Assembly (NCBI RefSeq): GCF_023897065.1 | Contig: NZ_JAMHIV010000005.1 | Span: 62,001 to 126,000, forward strand | Direction: 5' to 3' | DNA from: Crossiella sp. SN42 | GTDB taxonomy: Bacteria > Actinomycetota > Actinomycetes > Mycobacteriales > Pseudonocardiaceae | DNA length: 64,000 bases | In this document: positions 20,095 to 55,143 of the stretch, one piece after another | Layout: the number at the start of each line of letters is the position of its first letter | Position numbering within the stretch: the stretch's first letter is position 1 | Made by a program: the position numbers and the translations under genes | The notes under the pieces: model-generated | What the model saw: only the letters and a program-made list of their open reading frames with translations | Told to the model about the DNA's origin: nothing | Database searches by the model: none

Positions 20095-22920
20095 GTGTCA
20101 GTGCATTCGCCAGAGATCGCAGCCGGCGCGGTCACGGTGATCCGCCGCAACGGCGCGGTGTCCCCGTTCGAGGCGGCCAAGATCACGGCCGCGATGACCA
20201 AGGCCTTCCTCGCCGTGGAAGGCACCGACGCGGGTTCCTCGCCCCGCGTGCGCGAACAGATCGCCGAGCTGACCGCCTCGGTGACGCAGGGCCTGCTGCG
20301 GCACGCCGGCCCGGACCGGCCGCTGCACATCGAGCAGATCCAGGACCAGGTCGAGCTGACCCTGATGCGGGCCGGGCACCAGAAGGTCGCCCGCGCCTAC
20401 GTGCTCTACCGCGAGGAGCACAACAAGGCCCGCGAGCAGGCCACGCCCAAGCCCGCGCCGAAGTTCTCCGTGCGCCAGGCCGACGGCACGCTGATCCCGC
20501 TGGACACCGACCGGCTGGCGCTGGTCATCTCCGAGTCCTGCGCGGACCTGACGGCGGTGGACAGCGAGGCGGTGCTGGCCGAGACGCTGCGCAACCTCTA
20601 CAACGGCATCAGCCCCGCCGAGCTGAGCATCGCGCCGGTGATGGCCGCGCGCACCATGGTCGAGACCGACCCGAACTACTCCTACGTCAGCGCCCGGCTG
20701 CTGATGGACAAGCTGCGCGGCGAGGCGCTGACCTTCCTGGCCGGTGAGCACCGGGTGGCCAGCCACGCGCAGATGACCAGGGAGTACCCCACCTACTTCG
20801 CCGAGTTCATCCGGCGCGGGGTGGAGCTGGACCAGCTGGACACCGAGCTGGCCAAGTTCGACCTGGAGCGCCTCGGCGCCGCACTGGTGGCCGACCGGGA
20901 CCTGAAGTTCCAGTTCCTGGGCATGCAGACGCTCTACGACCGCTACCTGCTGCACAGCGACGAGCACCGCTACGAGCTGCCGCAGGCCTTCTTCATGCGG
21001 GTCGCGATGGGCCTGGCGCTGCGCGAGGACGACCGCGAGGCGCGGGCGATCGAGTTCTACGACCTGATCTCCAGCTTCGACTTCATGTGCTCCACGCCGA
21101 CGCTGTTCAACGCGGGCACCACCCGCTCGCAGCTGTCCTCCTGCTTCCTCACCACGGTGGGCGATGACCTGGAGGGCATCTTCCACGGCATCAGCAACAA
21201 CGCGCTGCTGTCGAAGTACGCCGGCGGGCTGGGCAACGACTGGACGCCGGTGCGCGGCATCGGCGCGCACATCAAGGGCACCAACGGCAAGTCCCAGGGC
21301 GTGGTGCCGTTCCTGAAGATCGCCAACGACACCGCGGTGGCGGTGAACCAGGGCGGCAAGCGCAAGGGCGCGGTCTGCGCGTACCTGGAAACCTGGCACA
21401 TCGACGTCGAGGAGTTCCTCGACCTGCGCAAGAACACCGGCGACGACCGGCGGCGCACGCACGACATGAACACCGCGAACTGGGTGCCGGATGAGTTCCT
21501 GCGCCGGGTCCGCGCGGACGGGCAGTGGACGCTGTTCTCCCCGGACGAGGTGCCGGACCTGCACGACTCCTACGGCCTGGAGTTCTCCCGCAAGTACGCC
21601 GAGTACGAGGCGGCCGCCGACCGCGGCGAGATCCGGGTCTTCCGCCGGGTGCAGGCCAAGGACCTGTGGCGGCGCATGCTGACCATGCTGTTCGAGACCG
21701 GGCACCCGTGGATCACCTTCAAGGACCCGTGCAACCTGCGCTCCCCGCAGCAGCACTCCGGCGTGGTGCACTCCTCGAACCTGTGCACCGAGATCACCCT
21801 CAACACCACGATCGACGAGGTCGCGGTGTGCAACCTGGGTTCGGTCAACCTGGCCCAGCACGTGACCGCCGAGGGCATCGACCACGCCCGGCTGGAGAAG
21901 ACCGTGCGCACCGCGGTCCGCATGCTGGACAACGTGATCGACGTGAACTTCTACACCATCCCGGAAGCGCGCCGGTCGAACCTGCGGCACCGTCCGGTGG
22001 GGCTTGGCCTGATGGGCTACCAGGACGCGCTCTACGCGCTGCGGCTGCCGATGGCATCCCCCGGCGCGGTGGAGTTCGCCGACCGCAGCATGGAGGAGAT
22101 CTCCTACTACGCCATCTCCGCCTCCGCTGAGCTGGCCGCCGAGCGCGGCGCCTACGAGTCCTTCCCGGGTTCCTTGTGGAGCAAGGGGATCCTGCCGATC
22201 GACTCGGTGCAGATCCTGGCCGACAACCGGGAGGGCGACCTCGCGGTGGACCGTTCGTCCACTTTGGACTGGGACACGCTGCGGGCGCGCGTGGTCGAGG
22301 TCGGCATGCGCAACTCCAACGTGATGGCCATCGCGCCGACCGCGACGATCGCCAACATCACCGGGGTCAACCAGTCGATCGAACCGCTGTACCGCAACCT
22401 GTACGTGAAGTCGAACATGTCCGGCGACTTCACCGTGGTCAACCCGCAGCTGGTGCGCGAGCTGAAGGAGCGCGGGCTGTGGGACGAGGTGATGATCGGC
22501 GACCTGAAGTACTTCGACGGCAGCCTCGGCGCCATCGAGCGCATCCCGGCTGAGCTGAAGTCCTTGTACGCCACCGCGTTCGAGCTGGACAGCGAGTGGC
22601 TGATCGAGGCGGCGGCCCGGCGGCAGAAGTGGATCGACCAGGCCCAGTCGCTCAACCTGTACATGGCCAAGCCCAGCGGCAAGAAGCTGGACTCGCTGTA
22701 CCAGCTGGCCTGGCTGCGCGGCCTGAAGACCACGTACTACCTGCGCGCCCAGAGCGCCACGCACGTGGAGAAGTCCACCCTGCGCGGCACCGACGGCAAG
22801 CTCAACGCGGTCTCCCCCGTGCTCAGCACCCCCGCGCCCGCGCCCTCCCCGGCCGCCACCGAGGCCGCCGAGGCGCTGGCCTGCTCCATCACCGACCCCG
22901 ACTGCGAGGCCTGCCAGTGA
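20095..22920 (+). CDS. nrdA: Class Ia ribonucleoside-diphosphate reductase, alpha subunit
   Basis: 941 residues. An N-terminal ATP-cone (about 12-105, [18 protein letters not shown]) senses dATP/ATP. The R1 barrel has the active-site triad Asn562, Cys564 and Glu566 (SNLCTEI). The C-terminal tail ends in DCEACQ, the redox cysteine pair re-reduced by thioredoxin-like proteins. It makes dNDPs for DNA synthesis using the tyrosyl/metal radical of NrdB. The GTG at 20095 has GGAG 9 nt upstream. The stop overlaps the nrdB start (GTGA). Control by the B12 riboswitch is strongly indicated. Confidence 0.96.
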
Positions 22921-44934: not shown

Positions 44935-45601
44935 GGGTCTGCTGGACCCGTGACCCTCCCGTACGCCCCCGGCGCCATCCTCCACGACACCCGAGCCCAC
45001 CTGCGCAAACTCGACGAGGCCCGCCGCCACATCCGGCACCGCGTCGCCGAGGCGCTGCCCCTGCACAACGTCAGCGGCCTGGACCGCCGCATCAACCTGC
45101 CCGAGCTGGACACCTGGGTCCTGGACGACGAGTGGGCGGGCGCGCTCTACGCCGAACCCCTGCACGAGCTGGGCCTGGAACACCTGGGCGGCGAGTCCGG
45201 CCGGGACGACATCCTGGTCACCAACCGCCTCACCGCGGCCCTGTACGCGGCCATGCAGGTCACCGTCCGCCCCGGCTCCACCGTGCTCGGCGTCTCCCCC
45301 AGCCACAGCCATCCCGCGGTGGCCCGCGCGGTCCGCGACGCGGGCGGCCACCTGGTCGACACCACCGTGGCCGCGCTGGCGGAAACCCTTGCCGCGCAAC
45401 GGGATGTCTCGGTGGTCGCGCTCACCCGCCTCGCCGTCACCTACGACGCGCTGACCACCGAGGACCTGCACCAGGTGGTCGAGCTGGTGCACGCGCACGG
45501 CGCGCTGGTCGTGGTGGATGACGCGGGCGGCGCGCGGGTCGGCCCGGCCGTCCTCGGCCAGCCCCGCACCCTGGAACTCGGCGCGGACCTAGGGCGTGTC
45601 C

Positions 45602-46000
45602 TCAAAGCCAGAGTGTGAGGGTGGCCAGGTCGATCATGGCCTGGAACGAGGTGGCGGTCTTGTCATAGCGGGTGGCGATGGCACGAAAGCCTTTGAGCCG
45701 GTTGAAGCAGCGTTCGACGACGTTGCGGCGGCGGTAGGCGGTGCGGTCGAAGGACGGCGGGCGTCCGCCGGTGTGTCCGCGCCGTTGGCGGTTGGCCTGC
45801 TGGTCCCGGCGTTCCGGGATGCTGGCGGGAATGTTGCGTCGACGGAGGTGGGCGCGGATCGTGCGAGTGGAATAGCCCTTGTCGGCCAGCACCCGGCTCG
45901 GCCGTGTGGCTGGTCGGCCTGGTCCTGGCCTGCGGAAGCGGACTCCGGCCATGACCTGCTCGAAGATAGTGCAGTCGTTGACGTGGCCGCCGGTGAGCAC
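45602..46000 (-). CDS. IS5-family transposase, second frame
   Basis: 132 residues from GTG 46000; the frame is open up to about 46120 (AIGRSRGGPTTKIHLACDGHG). It carries the remaining DDE catalytic core (LADKGYSTRTIRAHL, RRNVVERCFNRLKGFRAIATR). The full protein is probably made by programmed frameshifting from the first frame. Confidence 0.85.
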   Translation of the reverse strand: MLTGGHVNDCTIFEQVMAGVRFRRPGPGRPATRPSRVLADKGYSTRTIRAHLRRRNIPASIPERRDQQANRQRRGHTGGRPPSFDRTAYRRRNVVERCFNRLKGFRAIATRYDKTATSFQAMIDLATLTLWL

Positions 46001-46082
46001 GATCGAGAGTGGTCGTCCGTGACCGTCGCAGGCCAGGTGGATCTTGGTGGTGGGTCCGCCGCGGGAACGCCCGATGGCATGA

Positions 46083-46490
46083 TCAGCTGGCTCGGTGTGC
46101 CCGCCGCAGAATCCGCCCGCCCCCTGTGTGTGACGCCGTCGCCGGCATGCGGCGGGCTCCGGCGGAGTGCTGGTGGGCGCGCACGATGCTGGAGTCGACC
46201 GAGACCTCCCGGTCCAGTTCGTCGATCGCCTCGGCGATCACCCGCACTTGGGTGACCAGGGTGGTCAGGGTGCCGTTGCGTGACCAGCGCCAGAACCGGT
46301 TGTAGATCGTCTTCCACGGCCCGTAGCGCTCGGGCAGGTCACGCCAGGAGATACCGGTCTTGGCCTTGAACAGCATCCCGTTGATGACCCGGCGGTCATC
46401 GACCCGAGGTCGTCCTCTGCTGCCCGAGGCGGGCAGCAGAGGCTCGATCGCGTGCCACTGCTCATCGGTCAGCTCATGCCTGCGCACCAC
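46083..46490 (-). CDS. IS5-family transposase, first frame
   Basis: 135 residues: DUF4096-like N-terminus (ELTDEQWHAIEPLLPAS, SWRDLPERYGPWKTIYNRFWRW) and the first catalytic aspartate region (VSVDSSIVRAHQHSAG). It runs into a G-run near 46115 where a +1 shift would enter the second frame. Confidence 0.85.
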   Translation of the reverse strand: MVRRHELTDEQWHAIEPLLPASGSRGRPRVDDRRVINGMLFKAKTGISWRDLPERYGPWKTIYNRFWRWSRNGTLTTLVTQVRVIAEAIDELDREVSVDSSIVRAHQHSAGARRMPATASHTGGGRILRRAHRAS

Positions 46491-47095
46491 AGCCGAAGAT
46501 CAAACCAGATCACCCGCACCCACTTTGAGGACAGGCCCTAGGGCCGGCCTGCTGGGTGGTCGCGCCGACCTGGTCGCCCTGGCCCGTGCCCGCGCGTTCG
46601 AGCTCGGCAGCGAGTGCCGACCCGCCCTCTACCCCGCCGTGGCGCAGACCCTCCAGGACTACCGGCCGGAACGGGTCCGCGAGCTGGTCGCGCAGACCCA
46701 CCTGGTCGGTGCCGCCCTGCGCGCCCGCCTCGGCGACTGGGTCGAGCAGACCCCGTTCATCACCCGCCTGCCCGGCGCCGGGGTGCTCGCCGAACTGGGC
46801 CGCCGAAAGCCGGTCGGCCCGCTGGCCCCGATCGAGGCCACCGCGGCACTGGCCATGACCCTGCTCCGCGACCACGGCCTGCTCACCGTGCACTTCGCCG
46901 GGCTGCCGCCGGGCACCGACGCGCTCCTGATCAAGTTCCTGCCGCCGGAGACCATCGCCGCGATCGGCGGCCCGGAGGCCTTCGCCACCGCCGTCGACGA
47001 CGCCATGGACCAGGCCGCCGCCGCGGTCACCGACTCAGCCAGTACCCGCGCCCTGCTGCACGGTCCGTGAACCGGCCGCTGTCGGTGCCCGGTCG

Positions 47096-48547: not shown

Positions 48548-49528
48548 ATGCGTGCCACCACTTCGCTCCGCCTTGCCCTGCTCGCCGCCGTACTCGCCAC
48601 CGGACTCCTCGCCCCGGCTGCCACCGCCGCGCCCGCCTGCACCTGGCGGGCGAGCGCGGTGCCGACTCCGGCCGGGCTCGACCCGGCCGACTTCGCGGTC
48701 ACCGGCTCCGACGGCAGCGGCAACTACTCCGGGCACTACAAGGCGGGCTCGGCCGAGGCCGTGTTCTACCGCTGGGTCAACGGAAACCCGGTCGCGCAGC
48801 CACCGGCGGCGACCGCGCTGCGACTGGTCGTGGACGAGAACGCCGCGGGCACCGTGCTGTTGCAGGGCGAGACCGGGGTGCTGTTCACCCAGACCAAGGC
48901 CGGGACCTACCACAGCTTGGCCGTGCCAGCCGGGTTCACCTCGGTGACCGCGCTGGCGATCAACAACCGCGGCGAGGTGCTCGCCTCGGCCACCCGCACC
49001 GCGGACAACCGCTCCGTCGGCCTGCTCTGGCGCTCGACCGGCACCGTGGTCGTGGACGCGCCCGGCACCTCGGGCGTGCGCGCGGTCGACCTGGACGACC
49101 AGGGCGCGGTGCTGCTCAACACCACCAACACCGCGGAGCTGGCCGCGCTGGTCTGGCGGGACGGCGACATCAGCCGGAACGGCTTGCGCACCAGGCTTTC
49201 CCCGCGTGCCATCAGCGGCGGGATGGCCGTGGGCGTGGACCTCAGCAGCCTCGAACCCGCCGGGTGGCAGTGGGACAGCGAGCACGGCAACGTGACCTAT
49301 TTGCCGCGCTCCACCTGGGCCGAGTCGATCAACCACACGCAGCTGGTCGGCGGGCAGGCCGACCGGCCCGACGGCCCTCCCGCGGTGTGGCGCGCCGAGT
49401 CCTTCGTGACGCTGCTGCCGCTGCTGCCGGGCATGACCACGGCCAGGGTGAACCACGTCGGCGACGACGGCGTGGTGTTCGGCCGGGGCGGCGGGCCGCT
49501 GCGCTCGGTGCGCTGGCGCTGCGGCTAG
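48548..49528 (+). CDS. Secreted hypothetical protein
   Basis: 326 residues with a signal peptide (LRLALLAAVLATGLLAPAATAAP) and repeated segments like ALAINNRGEVLASATR and AVDLDDQGAVLLNTT, similar to HAF/beta-propeller-type repeats of unknown function. No enzymatic motif. ATG has GAGGGGG upstream. The stop codon TAG is part of the CTAG end of the palindromic element that follows. Confidence 0.75.
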   Translation: MRATTSLRLALLAAVLATGLLAPAATAAPACTWRASAVPTPAGLDPADFAVTGSDGSGNYSGHYKAGSAEAVFYRWVNGNPVAQPPAATALRLVVDENAAGTVLLQGETGVLFTQTKAGTYHSLAVPAGFTSVTALAINNRGEVLASATRTADNRSVGLLWRSTGTVVVDAPGTSGVRAVDLDDQGAVLLNTTNTAELAALVWRDGDISRNGLRTRLSPRAISGGMAVGVDLSSLEPAGWQWDSEHGNVTYLPRSTWAESINHTQLVGGQADRPDGPPAVWRAESFVTLLPLLPGMTTARVNHVGDDGVVFGRGGGPLRSVRWRCG

Positions 49529-49690
49529 GTCGTGTCCGCACAGTCCCGTCTGTGAGAGTCGTGATCGGTTCGGTCGCTGGCGGTGCGGCCGGGACGGCCT
49601 CATACCGGGCGTATTCGGGCGTTCCGGCCGCGCCGCCAGCGGCCGAACCGGCGCGGCTATCGCGGGCGGGACTGTGAAGACACGCCCTAG
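49525..49690. mobile_element. 166-bp nested-hairpin MITE-like element, copy A
   Basis: CTAG at both ends (49525-49528, 49687-49690). Outer stem: positions 1-24 pair with 143-166; inner stem 42-72 with 96-126; apical hairpin around ATACCGGGCGTAT. Left-arm T bases face right-arm G bases, so the mismatches are G-U in RNA. The ends match those of the IS at 45592. Ungapped alignment with copy B. Confidence 0.8.
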
Positions 49691-50514
49691 AGGCCCTGAC
49701 CGAGGAGTTGTCCCGCGCGCTCGACGCAGCGCAGCCGAGCGGGCGAGAAGTCGTACGGCATCTTGGTGATCGCTTCGAAGGCGCTCATCCGCGCGTCCTG
49801 CTCCTCGTCCAGGTCGCCGTGGAGCTCGAAGAGCTTCTCCTCGGCCGTGTCCAGCCCGGCGGCCTCGATGGCCTGCCCCAGGGCCTTGAGGTGGCGGTAG
49901 CGCTGGGTGGCGAGTTCTTCGACGCGCGGGTCGTCGGGATCGACGCCGTCATCGAGGGCGGCCTCGGCCGCGTCCAGGCGGTCTTCCTCGGCTCGCAGGC
50001 CGGGGTGGGTGGCCAGCACGATGAACGCGCTGGCCTGGATGGCGGCGGCCAGCGGGCCGAAGATCCGTTCCGTGACCAGCAGGGCGTCCAGGTCGGCGGG
50101 GCGCAGCGCGCCAGGGGGCAGGTGGCTGAGCCGGTCGGTCACCAGGTCCGAGAGCAGTCCCAGTGGGCTGCCCACGGCCCGCAGGCGCTGGACGGCCAGG
50201 CGCTGACGTCTGATGCCGTCCTCCTGGGCGGCCAGGGTTTCCTCCAGGCGGCCCAGGTTTTCGCCGATGTCCCGGGTCTCGTCGAACGCGGCCCGCATGT
50301 CGTCGAGCTTGATGCCGGCCTCGGCCATCTTGCGGATCCACAGCAGGCGGATCATGTCCTCGTAGCCGTAGCGGCGGCGGCCGTCCGCGCCGCGCTCAGG
50401 CTCCGGAAGCAGACCGATCTGGTGGTAGTGGCGGATGGCGCGCGGGGTCGTGCCGGCGAAGGCGGCGGCATCACCGATCTTGACCTGACGGGGCGTGGTG
50501 ACGGAGGGGTACAT
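49687..50514 (-). CDS. MerR-family transcriptional regulator
   Basis: 275 residues. N-terminal MerR HTH (VKIGDAAAFAGTTPRAIRHYHQIGLLPEP) and coiled-coil (RLEETLAAQEDGIRRQRLAV), followed by a long helical C-domain as in TipAS-like or multidrug-binding members. No metal-binding cysteines, so an organic ligand is likely. ATG 50514 gives the usual N-terminus. The stop is provided by the CTAG end of element copy A. Confidence 0.85.
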   Translation of the reverse strand: MYPSVTTPRQVKIGDAAAFAGTTPRAIRHYHQIGLLPEPERGADGRRRYGYEDMIRLLWIRKMAEAGIKLDDMRAAFDETRDIGENLGRLEETLAAQEDGIRRQRLAVQRLRAVGSPLGLLSDLVTDRLSHLPPGALRPADLDALLVTERIFGPLAAAIQASAFIVLATHPGLRAEEDRLDAAEAALDDGVDPDDPRVEELATQRYRHLKALGQAIEAAGLDTAEEKLFELHGDLDEEQDARMSAFEAITKMPYDFSPARLRCVERAGQLLGQGL

Positions 50515-50693
50515 CGCACACGGGACCTTTCGTGCTGTGGTGCCGCAAGGACAGCACATGCCGCCACGGCAGGTGCAAGCAAAGTTCTCTAGACCGCGCG
50601 ACCGCCGGAACGGGTGAGCCACCGTTGCTCGCGCTGCCCGCCCCACCTGGCGCTCCTAGCGTCGAAGGCAGTCGGGGAAAGCGAGGGAACCCA

Positions 50694-51170
50694 ATGTTCT
50701 CGCAGGTCAAGAAGCTCACGCTGGTCGTCGCGGTGCTCATGGGCGGGCTCACCGGCACCGCCGCCGCGGCGCCCCCGCCGGCGGAGGTCGATCCGGTCAC
50801 CGCGGTGTTGCGGCTGGCCGATGCCGCCGCGCACCTGTGCGAGGAGGAGAAGCCGGAACTGGTCACCAAACTGGGCGAAGCGGCGGACAAGGCGCTCACC
50901 GAGCTCCAGGAGATCGAGGGCGCGCCGGAGGAGCTGGCCGTGGCCCAGCTCGGGCTGGCCGCGGTCCTCAGCGCGGACATCTGCGAGGACATCACCGCCG
51001 AGGGCGCGACCGGGCTGATCGGCACGAAGGACTTCCGGGAGCTGGTGCTGAAGTTCTGCGAGTTCGCGCCGAAGTTGCTGACCTTCCACAAGGAACACGA
51101 GAAGGAGGTCGACGAGGTGCTCACCAAGCTCATGGACGAGGTGGCCAAGATCGTCGGTGGCACCCGCTAG
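50694..51170 (+). CDS. Small secreted helical protein
   Basis: 158 residues with a signal peptide (VKKLTLVVAVLMGGLTGTAAA). The mature part is acidic and helical with three cysteines (HLCEEEKPE, ADICEDITAEG, LKFCEFAPK). No family recognised. ATG at 50694 has GAGGG 8 nt upstream, and a TAGCGT -10-like box is at about 50657. Confidence 0.7.
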   Translation: MFSQVKKLTLVVAVLMGGLTGTAAAAPPPAEVDPVTAVLRLADAAAHLCEEEKPELVTKLGEAADKALTELQEIEGAPEELAVAQLGLAAVLSADICEDITAEGATGLIGTKDFRELVLKFCEFAPKLLTFHKEHEKEVDEVLTKLMDEVAKIVGGTR

Positions 51171-51179
51171 CCGTCCACG

Positions 51180-51220
51180 TGACAGCGGCCGGTTCCCCCA
51201 GGGAGAACCGGCCGCTGTCA
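51180..51220. terminator. Bidirectional hairpin terminator
   Basis: A perfect 16-bp stem (51180-51195 with 51205-51220) with a 9-nt loop, between the small secreted protein gene and the convergent RND transporter gene. Confidence 0.8.
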
Positions 51221-51229
51221 TGTTCGCGT

Positions 51230-54200
51230 TCAGCTCATGTGCGCGAACTTCTCGTCCGTGGCCCGCCGGTCCTGCCTGCGCTGCTTGACGTTCTCCACCA
51301 TGGTGTAGAGCGTCGGCACCAGCAGCAGGGTCAGCACCGTGGAGGAGACCAGGCCGCCGATCACCACGATGGCCAGCGGCTGGGAGATGAACCCGCCGCC
51401 GCCGGTGAGGCCCAGCGCCATCGGGATCAGCGCGAAGATCGTGGCGGCCGCGGTCATCACGATGGGGCGCAGGCGGTGCCGCCCGCCCTCGATGACCGCT
51501 TCTTGCACGCTCAGGCCGTCCCTGCGGTACTGGTTCATCAGGTCGATCAGCACGATCGCGTTGGTCACCACGATGCCGACCAGCATCAGCATGCCGATCA
51601 GCGCCGGCACGCCGAGGGCCTTGCCGGTGATGAGCAGCAAGCCGATCGCGCCGGTGGCCGCGAACGGGATGGAGACCAGCAGGATCAGCGGCTGGACCAG
51701 GCTCTGGAAGGTGGCCACCATGATCACGAACACGATGGCGATCGCGACCAGCAGGGCCAGCCCCAGGTCCGAGAACGCCTTCTGCTGCTCCGCGCTGACG
51801 CCGCCGATGGTGTAGCTCGCGCCGCCCGGCAGCTTGAGCGCGTCCAGCTTCTGGCGCAGCTGGGTGGTCACCTCGCCCAGGTTCTGGCCGACCGGGGTGG
51901 CCTTCACCGTGGCGCTGCGGGAACCGTTGATGCGCTTGATCTGCACCGGGGCGTCCACCTGCTTGACCTCGGCCACCGAGTCCAGCCGGACCGGGCCTGC
52001 CGCGGTGAGCAGCTGGTAGGCCTTGATCTGGTTCAGGTTCTCCGGTGCGGCGCCGCCGGTGAGCTGCACGTCCTGGCGCTTGCCGTCCACCGAGATCTGG
52101 CCGACCGTGGCGCCCCGGAAGGCCTGCCCGAGCAGCTGGCCCACCGACTGGTCGCTGAGCCCGGCCTTGCCCGCGGCCTCCCGGTCCAGGGTGACCTGCA
52201 CCCGAGGGGCGCTGTCGCCGAGGTCGCTGGCCACGTCGGTGACCCCGCTGATGCTCCGCACGGTGTCGGTGACCTGGTCGGCCGCGGTGCGCAGCGCGCC
52301 GGGGTCGGAGGCCTGCACGTTGACCTCGAGGCTGGTCGAGCCGAGGCCGCCGCCACCACCGCCCGCGCCGACGGTGATGTCACCGGCGCCGCTGAGCTCG
52401 TTGGTGCGCTCGCGCAGCTTCTGCTCCACCGCGGGAGTGTCCACATCGTCCTTGAGCGTCACCGAGTAGGTCGCGGAGTTGCTGCCCCCGCCGCCGCCGA
52501 AGGCCGCGAACCCGCCAGCTGAGCCGACGTTGACCTGGTAGGTCTTGACCTCGGGGGTGTCCTTGAGCACCTCCTCGACCTTCTTGGCCGCGGCGTCGGT
52601 GGCCTGCAGGCTGCTGCCGATGGGCAGTTTCTGTTGCAGGGCGATGGTGTTCTGGCCGGAGGAGTCCAGGAAGTTGGTCTGCAGCTGCGGGACCAGGGCC
52701 AGGGTGCCGCCGAAGACCAGCACCGCGGCGATCACGGTGAGCCAGCGGCGTTTGGTGACCCAGCGCAGGATCGGCACGTACATCCGCTGCATGAAGCCGC
52801 GGCGTTCCTTCTCCACCTGCGCCCGCAGCACCTCGCGGGCCTCTTCCTCGTCCTCGGGCAGCACGCTGGGCTTGAGGAACCAGTAGGCCAGCACCGGGAT
52901 GATGGTCAGCGCGACCAGCAGCGAGGCCAGCAGGGCCACCGTGACGGTGAGCGCGAACGGGGCGAACAGCTCGCCGACCATGCCGCTGGTGAAGGCGATC
53001 GGCAGGAACACCGCGACCGTGGTCAGCGTGGAGGAGGTGACCGCGCCTGCCACCTCGCGCACGCCGTCGAGCACCGCCTCGCGTTTCTCCTCGCCGTAGC
53101 CCAGATGTCGTTTGATGTTCTCCAGCACCACGATCGAGTCGTCCACCACCCGGCCGACCGCGATGGTGAGCGCGCCCAGGGTGAGCATGTTCAGCGACAG
53201 GTCGCCGGTCCACAGCACGATCAGCGCGATCACCAGGGACAGCGGGATGGAGACCGCGGTGACCACGGTGGAGCGGATGGACAACAGGAAGATCAGGATG
53301 ATGATGACCGCGAAGCCGAGGCCGAGCGCGCCTTCGGTGGTCAGGCCCTCCACCGACTTCTCCACGAACGGCGCCTGGTCGAAGACCACGTCCAGCTTGG
53401 CGTTGCCGCCCACCGACTCGGCCAGGCTGCCCAGCTTGTCCCGCACCGCGTGCGAGACGTCCACGGCGTTGCCGTCCGGGGACAGGGTGACCGAGATGCC
53501 CAGGCTTTCCTTGCCGTTGGTGCGGGTCAGCGAGCTGGCCGGGGCCTGGGTCTCCTTCACCGCGGCCACCTCGCCGAGCTTGACCGGCTTCGGCGCGCGG
53601 TTGGCCGCGCCACCACCGCCCGCGCCACCCGCACCGCCCGCGCTCGGGGTGAGGTAGAGGTTCTGCAGGTCCTTGAGCGAGCCGAGCTGCTGTCCGACCT
53701 GGACCGACAGCGACTTCTCGCCCTCAGTGATCGACCCGGCCGGGATGGAGATCCCGTTGGCGCGCAAGGCTTCCGCCACCGAGGTGGGGGCGAGTCCGGC
53801 GGCCAGCAGCTTGGCGGTGTCCGGGGTGATGGTGACGATCTGCTTGGGCGCGCCGGTGATCGTGGCCTCGCGCACCCCCGGCAGTCGCTGCAACTCAGGC
53901 ACCACGCTGCGGTCCAGCTTCTGCGCCAGGTCCCGCAGCTCGCCGTCGGCCGAGGCGGCCAGCACCACCGCGGGCAGGCTGTCGGTGGAGCCGACGATCA
54001 CCTCCGGCTCGACGTCCTGCGGCAGCTGCTTGCCGATCCGGTTCAGCGCCTGCTGGATGTCGTTGACCGCGTCGCTGACCACGGTGCCGTACTGGAACTG
54101 CACCTGCACCGTCGAGGAGCCCTCGCGCGAGGTGGAGGTGACCTTGTCCACCCCGTTGATCGCGCGCACCGCGTTCTCGACCGGGATGCTCACCTGGTCC

Positions 54201-54382
54201 TCGACCAGCTCCGGCGAGGAACCGGGGTAGCTGGCCACCACGGTCGCCGCCGGGAACTCCAGCGAGGGCAGCAGCTCCTGTTTCAGAGACGGGATGGCGA
54301 ACGCACCGAATGCCGCCGCGACTATCGCGATCAGCGCGATCAGCGCCCGGTTGGCGAGGCTCAGCCTGGCCAGCGAAGTCAT
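51230..54382 (-). CDS. RND efflux transporter, HAE1/SwrC-like
   Basis: 1050 residues with 12 predicted membrane helices and two large periplasmic-type loops. N-terminal LSLANRALIALIAIVAAAFG and ELLPSLEFPAATVVASYPG; helix IV holds the proton-relay type sequence VGRVVDDSIVVLENIKRH. It resembles Gram-positive SwrC and AcrB-type pumps for lipophilic compounds. ATG 54382 has AGGAGA upstream. Divergent from the MarR gene, which is probably its repressor. Confidence 0.92.
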   Translation of the reverse strand: MTSLARLSLANRALIALIAIVAAAFGAFAIPSLKQELLPSLEFPAATVVASYPGSSPELVEDQVSIPVENAVRAINGVDKVTSTSREGSSTVQVQFQYGTVVSDAVNDIQQALNRIGKQLPQDVEPEVIVGSTDSLPAVVLAASADGELRDLAQKLDRSVVPELQRLPGVREATITGAPKQIVTITPDTAKLLAAGLAPTSVAEALRANGISIPAGSITEGEKSLSVQVGQQLGSLKDLQNLYLTPSAGGAGGAGGGGAANRAPKPVKLGEVAAVKETQAPASSLTRTNGKESLGISVTLSPDGNAVDVSHAVRDKLGSLAESVGGNAKLDVVFDQAPFVEKSVEGLTTEGALGLGFAVIIILIFLLSIRSTVVTAVSIPLSLVIALIVLWTGDLSLNMLTLGALTIAVGRVVDDSIVVLENIKRHLGYGEEKREAVLDGVREVAGAVTSSTLTTVAVFLPIAFTSGMVGELFAPFALTVTVALLASLLVALTIIPVLAYWFLKPSVLPEDEEEAREVLRAQVEKERRGFMQRMYVPILRWVTKRRWLTVIAAVLVFGGTLALVPQLQTNFLDSSGQNTIALQQKLPIGSSLQATDAAAKKVEEVLKDTPEVKTYQVNVGSAGGFAAFGGGGGSNSATYSVTLKDDVDTPAVEQKLRERTNELSGAGDITVGAGGGGGGLGSTSLEVNVQASDPGALRTAADQVTDTVRSISGVTDVASDLGDSAPRVQVTLDREAAGKAGLSDQSVGQLLGQAFRGATVGQISVDGKRQDVQLTGGAAPENLNQIKAYQLLTAAGPVRLDSVAEVKQVDAPVQIKRINGSRSATVKATPVGQNLGEVTTQLRQKLDALKLPGGASYTIGGVSAEQQKAFSDLGLALLVAIAIVFVIMVATFQSLVQPLILLVSIPFAATGAIGLLLITGKALGVPALIGMLMLVGIVVTNAIVLIDLMNQYRRDGLSVQEAVIEGGRHRLRPIVMTAAATIFALIPMALGLTGGGGFISQPLAIVVIGGLVSSTVLTLLLVPTLYTMVENVKQRRQDRRATDEKFAHMS

Positions 54383-54459
54383 GCTCGTCTCCTGAGTTGG
54401 GTATTCAGCCTGGTGCTAATAGTCTGCCTCACCCGAAGGGTCTATGTGGTGTGGGGCTG

Positions 54460-54625
54460 CTAGGTCATGTTCGGCGGATCTCGTGCGTGAGCGCCGGAGT
54501 CCAGGTCGTTCCTGGTGGTGGCGCCGAGACAACCTCGTACTGGGCGTACTTGGTCGTCTCGGCGCCGCCGCCAGGGACGGCCTGGGCCCGGCGGTCGCGT
54601 GCGAGATCCGCCGAACATGACCTAA
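54460..54625. mobile_element. 166-bp nested-hairpin MITE-like element, copy B
   Basis: Same length and layout as copy A; ends CTAG (54460) and CTAA (54622). The outer 23-bp stem is perfect. Inner stem with left T facing right G at four positions. Apical hairpin around GTACTGGGCGTAC. It lies in the divergent promoter region of the RND pump and the MarR gene. Confidence 0.8.
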
Positions 54626-54675
54626 GGTCCGGTACCCGCATTAAGAACGTTGCATGCCGAGGCCGAGGAGCAGAG

Positions 54676-55143
54676 TTGCCGGAGGAGTTGCCTGCGGAGC
54701 GGTCGCAGCTGATCGACTCCCTGATGGCCGCCCAGCGGCAGTTGCGCGCGCTGGCGGCCTCCGACCACGGCAACCCACTGTTCTCGATCAACCTGACCAT
54801 GCAGCAGCTGCGGCTGTTACTGGTGGTGTCCATCCAGGGCCCCCGTTCCAGCCAGGAACTGACCCATGAGCTGAAGGTCAGCCCCGCCACCGTGACCGGG
54901 CTGGTGGACCGTCTGGTGGCACACGGCTACGTCCAACGTCGTGAGGATCCCAACGACCGGCGTATCCGGCGCATCGAACCCACGAAAGAGGGACACGAGC
55001 TGATCGCGCGGTTGGATGATGCGGGTTCCACGCACTTCCGCGGCTTACTGGACCGGCTCGACGCCGAGGACCTGATGGCCCTGGACCGGGTCATCCGCCG
55101 CCTGGTGGAGCTGGCCCGCGAGGAGAAGGGGACCACACCGTGA
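54676..55143 (+). CDS. MarR-family transcriptional regulator
   Basis: 155 residues with the MarR winged helix (LKVSPATVTGLVDRLVAHGYVQRREDPNDRRIRRI). Probably represses the divergent RND pump gene and itself, released by a drug or lipid. TTG 54676 has GAGGAG 5 nt upstream; no ATG or GTG is better placed. Coupled to GPP34 (GTGA overlap). Confidence 0.87.
   Translation: MPEELPAERSQLIDSLMAAQRQLRALAASDHGNPLFSINLTMQQLRLLLVVSIQGPRSSQELTHELKVSPATVTGLVDRLVAHGYVQRREDPNDRRIRRIEPTKEGHELIARLDDAGSTHFRGLLDRLDAEDLMALDRVIRRLVELAREEKGTTP

Follow-up and report, generated by a model that had tools for sequence, protein, structure and literature searches.

A family of miniature mobile elements with IS5-like ends and a strand-specific inner hairpin in Crossiella sp. 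SN42 and related actinomycetes

The window analysed here is a 64,000-nucleotide stretch of the Crossiella sp. SN42 genome (assembly GCF_023897065.1, contig NZ_JAMHIV010000005.1, positions 62,001 to 126,000). It carries two long hairpin sequences, copies A and B, each set between two genes, and an insertion sequence (IS) of the IS5 family to the left of both (Table 1). The reading favoured here, with a probability of roughly three in four, is that A and B each arose by insertion of a non-autonomous member of the IS5 family, i.e. a miniature inverted repeat transposable element (MITE), with IS-like ends enclosing an inner hairpin whose pairing is selected on one strand. A first-pass annotation of the window had placed the two copies correctly, as 166-bp elements that align with no gap inside, and its hairpins have proved real. 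What it missed is that its two elements are insertions of one mobile element, flanked by TA, with outer arms like IS5-family terminal repeats and, in the case of copy B, absent from the four other genomes of the genus searched; the element proper is the 160 bp lying between the TA dinucleotides rather than the full 166 bp.

Table 1. Copies A and B, their parts, the neighbouring genes and the insertion sequence, in positions of the window
Feature	Positions	Strand	Remarks
Copy A with flanking TA pair	49526-49689	+	A-type subfamily; element proper 49528-49687, 160 bp
Copy A left outer arm (terminal inverted repeat)	49528-49548	+	IS5 'CTCAAAG' type, 17/20 to IS end
Copy A right outer arm	49667-49687	+	Pairs with 49528-49548
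Copy A inner hairpin (core)	49549-49666	+	G.U-rich on + strand; covariance-model match 49547-49668
Copy A conserved apex CCTCATACCGGGCGTATT	49598-49615	+	
Copy B with flanking TA target duplication	54461-54624	+	B-type subfamily; element proper 54463-54622, 160 bp
Copy B left outer arm (terminal inverted repeat)	54463-54483	+	Best IS end 14/20, 'CTGGTGGATC' type, under the 15/20 line
Copy B right outer arm	54602-54622	+	Pairs with 54463-54483
Copy B inner hairpin (core)	54484-54601	+	Covariance-model match 54482-54603
Copy B conserved apex CCTCGTACTGGGCGTACT	54533-54550	+	
Gene left of copy A	48659-49528	+	Convergent with MerR-like regulator
MerR-like regulator right of copy A	49687-50514	-	
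RND-type transporter left of copy B	51230-54382	-	Divergent from MarR-like regulator
MarR-like regulator right of copy B	54676-55143	+	
IS5-family insertion sequence, 951 bp with TA ends	45590-46540	-	Ends TAGGGCGTGTCCTCAAAG / TAGGGCCTGTCCTCAAAG, like A-type elements
Transposase frame of the insertion sequence, 135 amino acids	46083-46490	-	Pfam DUF4096 (PF13340), E 7.1e-30

Both copies form near-perfect hairpins over 166 nt and are far more stable than shuffled sequences: copy A folds at -145.1 kcal/mol (z -14.9) and copy B at -159.9 kcal/mol (z -22.0), with none of 200 dinucleotide shuffles as good in either case. Against a covariance model of the core, copy A scores 116.9 bits on the plus strand and 63.9 on the minus strand, and copy B 111.8 and 68.0. 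Positions 25-41 and 127-142, first described as an internal loop, are largely paired, although some of the pairs are G.U and a few positions are mismatched. The statement that U always stands on the left arm is nearly true; copy A has eight T-left/G-right pairs against one in the reverse arrangement, copy B seven against one, and the inner stem over 36 copies 204 against 78. Pairing had also been described as kept within each copy. Neither copy is perfect, as each has an A.C cell (a cell being one pair in one copy): in copy A it is the single such case in the outer arms of all 36 copies (756 cells), in copy B one of four in the inner stem. Further copies with changes that do not pair had been named as grounds for giving up the structure; this check was made and did not refute it, as 98.3% of 2700 cells over the 36 copies are paired.

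How large is the family in this genome? Sequence searches with A and B in the 9.72-Mb assembly (82 contigs), with the best 40 candidates scored per search, gave 63 matches for one copy and 17 for the other, some of them representing the same place on opposite strands. Thirty-nine copies were oriented by core similarity to A or B, and omission of one cut by a contig end (L009) and of a half element (L023) left 37 near-full-length copies, which were aligned; a duplicate (L032) and the fragments L037, L038/L039, L061 and L064-L072 were outside this set from the start. The 36-copy alignment used for pair counts is the same set minus the divergent L041, with orientation by sequence similarity. The covariance model of the core (122 positions) was built from 32 of the 37 copies, and its E-values are rough; alignments and the choice of neighbours were made by custom scripts. 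The copies fall into subfamilies with shared arms. At least 13 more loci are incomplete in one way or another, being truncated at a contig end, halved, partial or apex-less (L009, L023, L038, L061, L064-L072). Because the assembly breaks at element copies, the copy number is a lower bound; several contigs end inside a copy (L009, L061, L064-L067, L069-L072). The half elements L023 and L064 end at the apex, as though cut at the hairpin tip. Within the window the core model finds copies A and B only, besides two matches at E 0.06. A third apex-like 18-mer with one mismatch (21593-21610, minus strand) was rejected: it apparently lies in coding DNA, with no hairpin around it and no model match.

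The insertions can be seen as such by comparison with other genomes of the genus. Copy B is missing from all four searched (G001-G004, of which G004 is of the same species), and in G001, G003 and G004 the alignments of the two flanks overlap at the empty site by exactly 2 bp, TA; G002 has a 9-nt gap in the left flank near the site. TA is retained at both ends in 18 of the 37 copies in the SN42 genome, and many insertions are found at the CTAG of a TAG stop codon. Among 140 elements fetched from several genomes (from the copies listed per genome) there are eight pairs at orthologous places, which suggests a fast turnover of element positions, suggested rather than measured because the 140 come from partial copy lists. 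A length of 160 bp, the lack of a transposase gene, many dispersed copies (the 37 among them) and a target-site duplication with empty sites in three genomes are the properties of a MITE. A stand-alone family of cis-regulatory or small RNA genes, which would not be mobile DNA, might be proposed from the strong covariation and the conserved apex, but the TA duplication, the empty sites, the IS5-like ends, the scatter over every gene context and the presence of only eight orthologous pairs leave it barely credible.

On comparison of sequences, the arms resemble, over their outer ~20 bp, the terminal repeats of IS5-family elements that have a DUF4096 transposase. Thirty IS loci were examined and clear ends of four types were found: CTCAAAG, CTGTAAGTC, TTTCnnAAGTC and CTGGTGGATC. 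The end library consists of 16 of these loci, the omitted 14 being L401, which repeats L396, and 13 without a clear end pair found (L384 and L385 do show a recognisable end). With duplicate arms omitted, as well as arms whose two ends agree at fewer than 18 of 22 positions, a match of 15/20 or better to an IS end was found for 74 of 110 distinct element arms, compared with 0.3% of shuffled arms, related arms not being independent; the mean best match is 15.2 versus 10.2 for shuffles. The sharing of ends with an autonomous IS5-family element thus applies to the family and to copy A, while copy B reaches 14/20 only. Ends of the L110 type (TAGTGTCGCGCACCGGAA), present in two of four genomes, were found there on the elements alone, with no IS partner. 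The IS in the window is a candidate source of transposase for the elements, and relatives of its transposase are present in 78 of 150 genomes of the family at E 1e-15 or below. In G004 this IS appears to be missing, since the alignment begins only at its right edge and there is no match to its transposase at E 1e-15.

Over 36 copies, the 756 outer-arm cells comprise 745 Watson-Crick pairs, eight G.U, one A.C and two other combinations, and 204 of them are double changes. As the outer arms resemble IS5-family terminal repeats, much of this covariation probably belongs to the transposon ends and not to an RNA. The dispersed copies, TA empty sites and IS5-like arms together define a MITE family with exchangeable ends. 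Could arm-to-arm conversion alone (template switching at quasi-palindromes) keep the palindrome as a whole perfect, without any function under selection? The outer arms do change in concert, by C-G to G-C swaps with hardly any intermediates, as the counts above indicate. Conversion, however, would remove G.U and A.C alike, and the inner stem has many of the former and almost none of the latter; recent G>A changes, moreover, strike G.U pairs and hardly G-C pairs. This explanation is disfavoured for the inner stem and improbable overall.

In the inner stem the pairing pattern is of a different kind. Double changes were found in 48 of the 75 pairs of the element, with 398 double-change cells observed compared with 116 +/- 10 after shuffling and 34-60 in slid controls. 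The 1872 inner-stem cells consist of 1559 Watson-Crick pairs, 282 G.U, four A.C and 27 others; 31 pair columns have at least one G.U and five have A.C. If the constraint did not differ between the strands, similar numbers of G.U and A.C would be expected. Recent changes tell the same story. On terminal branches (120 of 139 elements, 19 being without two neighbours at 85%), pairing survives 65 of 81 single changes and is lost in the other 16; it survives 29 double changes and is lost in one, and 35 changes are at unpaired positions. G>A occurs at 17 of 290 G.U sites versus two of 1573 G-C sites (p 1.6e-12), and T>C at 16 of 290 T.G sites versus none of 410 T-A sites. In the eight orthologous pairs, 19 of 22 single changes keep pairing and three break it, where 28% would be expected to keep it if transitions and transversions occurred as in the flanks, at 128:128 (p 2e-8); there are also three compensatory pairs, one gap and eight changes at unpaired positions. 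The divergence is 37/1357 in the element and 256/6261 in the flanks. When folded as RNA, the plus strand is more stable than the minus strand in 139 of 139 elements (means -150.8 and -120.5 kcal/mol). As copies from other genomes were oriented by a model that is itself aware of G.U pairs, this result is not wholly independent of the claim of a one-strand fold, and the same goes for part of the terminal-branch count.

Since G.U is common, A.C rare and recent changes keep the pairs, a strand-specific fold is therefore under selection in the inner stem; covariation beyond ancestry and tolerance of G.U on one strand, the marks of a structured RNA, are both found. The original suggestion of a selected RNA structure or a cruciform was half right, as the inner stem has a one-strand G.U signature and a cruciform alone gives none. 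Two explanations that dispense with selection were considered. A mutational C>T bias was rejected: G>A would not then strike G.U pairs and hardly G-C pairs, and transversions make up 14 of 81 terminal single changes compared with 128 of 256 in the flanks. The covariation might also merely reflect common descent within a few subfamilies that were palindromic from the start, and the copies do group into subfamilies with shared arms; but the slid and shuffled controls, together with orthologue and terminal-branch changes that mostly keep one-strand pairing, make ancestry alone very improbable.

How might such an element live? The outer ~20 bp of the arms would presumably be read as double-stranded DNA by IS5/DUF4096 transposases, which may move the elements in trans, with insertion at TA, often where this belongs to the CTAG of a TAG stop codon. 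What the copies share between the arms is a cargo of ~118 nt that folds into a long hairpin; its apex is conserved, and its pairing is kept on one strand only, with G.U accepted alongside Watson-Crick pairs. The folded strand is considerably more probably RNA than single-stranded DNA; RNA is the more economical reading, as G.U behaves nearly like a full pair. What the hairpin would do is a matter for more cautious proposals. The most conventional guess is a transcript hairpin acting in cis, which might stop passing transcripts, protect them or be cut in them, so that insertion at gene ends would do little harm. It would fit the gene-end insertions, but is doubtful. A broader proposal, put forward tentatively, is an IS5 satellite: an actinomycete hairpin lineage that would swap ends to suit the IS5 transposase present, its inner hairpin being a functional RNA or single-stranded DNA of one strand, required by the element or the host wherever it lands, whatever the transcription nearby.

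Several findings weigh against a MITE with a selected inner hairpin moved by IS5 transposases. A role of the IS5 transposase in movement is proposed from the likeness of ends. Copy A is missing from G004, but does not leave a clean empty site there, as the site is 10 nt longer; the 10 extra bases (L134) stand beside CTAG, look like an element end and are perhaps a stub from an earlier element. Thirty-six of the 110 arms, including those of copy B and the TAGTG group, reach no IS end at 15/20. The orthologue test has eight loci behind it, and pair-preserving changes could be brought in by gene conversion between copies. A sigma-70-type scan found no promoter-like site in or beside copies A and B, and a scan of the two copies found no classical terminator (a hairpin plus a T run). 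Gene context is also of relevance. For 117 elements, a few of them orthologous duplicates, simple codon-usage gene calls gave 42 convergent, 18 sense tandem, 33 antisense tandem and 22 divergent settings, and two with the left gene uncalled; tandem insertions thus lean antisense (two-sided p 0.049). Pairing is kept or broken in 15 and 4 changes in convergent settings, 12 and 2 in sense, 21 and 2 in divergent, 9 and 3 in antisense, and 8 and 5 where one side is uncalled. The fold is retained irrespective of neighbouring transcription, which is unexpected for a read-through RNA. Co-directional read-through, with the fold selected in the mRNA of the upstream gene, was tried as an explanation and is unsupported by both the context counts and the retention of pairing. 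As retention shows no dependence on gene context, the choice of strand is seemingly of consequence for the element itself or for something at work at every site.

The same two observations, pairing that is independent of the direction of neighbouring genes and the lack of a promoter-like site at A or B, speak for a hairpin of single-stranded DNA, formed by one strand at a step of replication or mobility and acted on by selection or repair. G.T is a mild mismatch in DNA as well. However, G.U behaves almost as a Watson-Crick pair would and occupies 282 of 1872 inner cells, which is more in keeping with RNA. The likely partners, judging by their DUF4096 transposase and IS5-like ends, are DDE-type IS5 elements, which work on double-stranded ends, and among the G004 copies listed the strand orientation looked mixed by eye in both halves of this complete genome. 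Single-stranded DNA is therefore held to be unlikely, and an RNA fold carried by an IS5-type MITE is retained as the preferred reading.

The element is widespread but patchy. All five genomes of the genus examined have matches, and in the family 45 of 150 genomes, in 15 of 46 genera, match the core model at E 1e-5 or below; in one genus, six of 10 genomes have a match. A scan of named genomes for the apex pattern gave at least 116 stretches. For 46 of the 80 apex loci listed the core model gives a match with an E-value of 1e-5 or lower; among the matches listed, these belong to Lentzea, Kutzneria, Pseudonocardia, Kibdelosporangium, Streptomyces and Kitasatospora; the remaining loci have weaker model matches or none. 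The apex by itself also matches by chance, as loci such as L196 of Halobaculum, without a model match, indicate. When 31 loci chosen from the apex set were folded, most gave long, nearly perfect hairpins whose stems differ widely in sequence, and a few (e.g. L164 and L176) gave poorer or interrupted folds. A phylum-wide model search found at least four of 396 genomes, that of SN42 included and the other three in one genus, which is a lower bound, the model being tuned to this genus and the best nine candidates scored per genome. Among plasmids copy A had no match, and a Streptomyces copy had matches in 29 records; the latter copy had no match in a phage search. In L166 and L176 of Streptomyces and L210 of Kitasatospora, a second GC-rich palindrome with runs of G and C has apparently inserted into the hairpin stem. 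At one shared insertion site, the SN42 genome has an apex-less element (L038) and the related species G001 a full model match (L280), probably the result of a loss of the hairpin tip in place.

How does the family compare with known repeat elements? A search of positions 49000-55000 against Rfam 15 found no family at the gathering score. The seven sub-threshold matches (six microRNA models and one internal ribosome entry site; best MIR8670, 51.3 bits against 150) were taken as chance or generic long-hairpin matches. A search of the open-access literature found no paper on this hairpin family, so the early impression that it is not a described family agrees with both sources. ERIC/RU-1 is a MITE-like element whose transcripts fold, and we know of no test of G.U against A.C comparable to the present one for it or for NEMIS/Correia. 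NEMIS/Correia is also MITE-like with transcripts that fold, and its hairpins have been proposed as RNase III substrates (PMC2229807); both live in other hosts. RUP is a bacterial MITE thought to be mobilised by a resident IS, IS630-Spn1 (PMC2229807). RUP-like MITEs and the present element are alike in being shorter than 200 bp and without a protein, in having TA ends and terminal repeats shared with an IS, and in inserting at TA. Most bacterial MITEs are said to be A+T-rich (PMC2229807); unlike RUP-like MITEs as portrayed there, the present element is GC-rich and wholly one hairpin, has several IS5 end types around related inner hairpins and shows selection for strand-specific pairing. YPAL/RU-2, a palindromic sequence of Yersinia of ~168 bp, resembles it in length, intergenic location, palindromic form, a composition that is not A+T-rich, and recent mobility by the evidence of empty sites; YPAL/RU-2 is described as without TA ends and with target duplications of 3-26 bp (PMC2229807), whereas here there are TA ends, a 2-bp TA duplication and a likely partner IS type. 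REP and REPIN sequences are likewise dispersed extragenic palindromes linked to a transposase in trans, according to PMC3116915, PMC3733652 and PMC2817692. REPs are, however, 20-40 bp long (PMC3733652), and the present element is ~160 bp, with a TA duplication and IS5-like ends; GTAG/CGTC tags were not searched for. IS5-family insertion sequences with a DUF4096 transposase (PF13340) share the terminal repeats and TA flanks, but the element differs in having no transposase and an interior that is a hairpin. Regarded as mobile DNA, it can be classed with the IS5-family MITEs; the nearest described kinds are RUP, NEMIS and YPAL/RU-2. Several IS5 end types on one hairpin lineage, the spread over multiple actinomycete genera and the strand-specific selection are new within the literature searched, as far as these searches go.

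MITEs are usually seen as short transposon ends around a passive filler. Here the 'filler' is well kept, as a fold of one strand in which G.U is read as a pair, apparently even after insertion, and such a fold was unexpected for a mobile element of this kind. Should the IS5-satellite proposal be true, it would represent a structured RNA borne by a transposon, and possibly a new single-stranded step in the life of DDE-type MITEs. There is also a warning in the outer arms: covariation in bacterial intergenic repeats can stem from transposon ends as well as from RNA. The two layers can be separated in this case because their G.U content differs, at eight of 756 outer cells and 282 of 1872 inner cells. 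Pseudonocardiaceae and Streptomycetaceae include many antibiotic producers, and the spread of the element over these two families provides many natural replicates of end exchange, loss and pair-preserving change, which makes the role of a transposon-borne hairpin at gene ends open to experiment.

The interval between the two copies contains one further hairpin. It has 23-bp arms (51177-51223) and lies between convergent gene ends (51170 on the plus strand and 51230 on the minus strand), a place and shape that are terminator-like.

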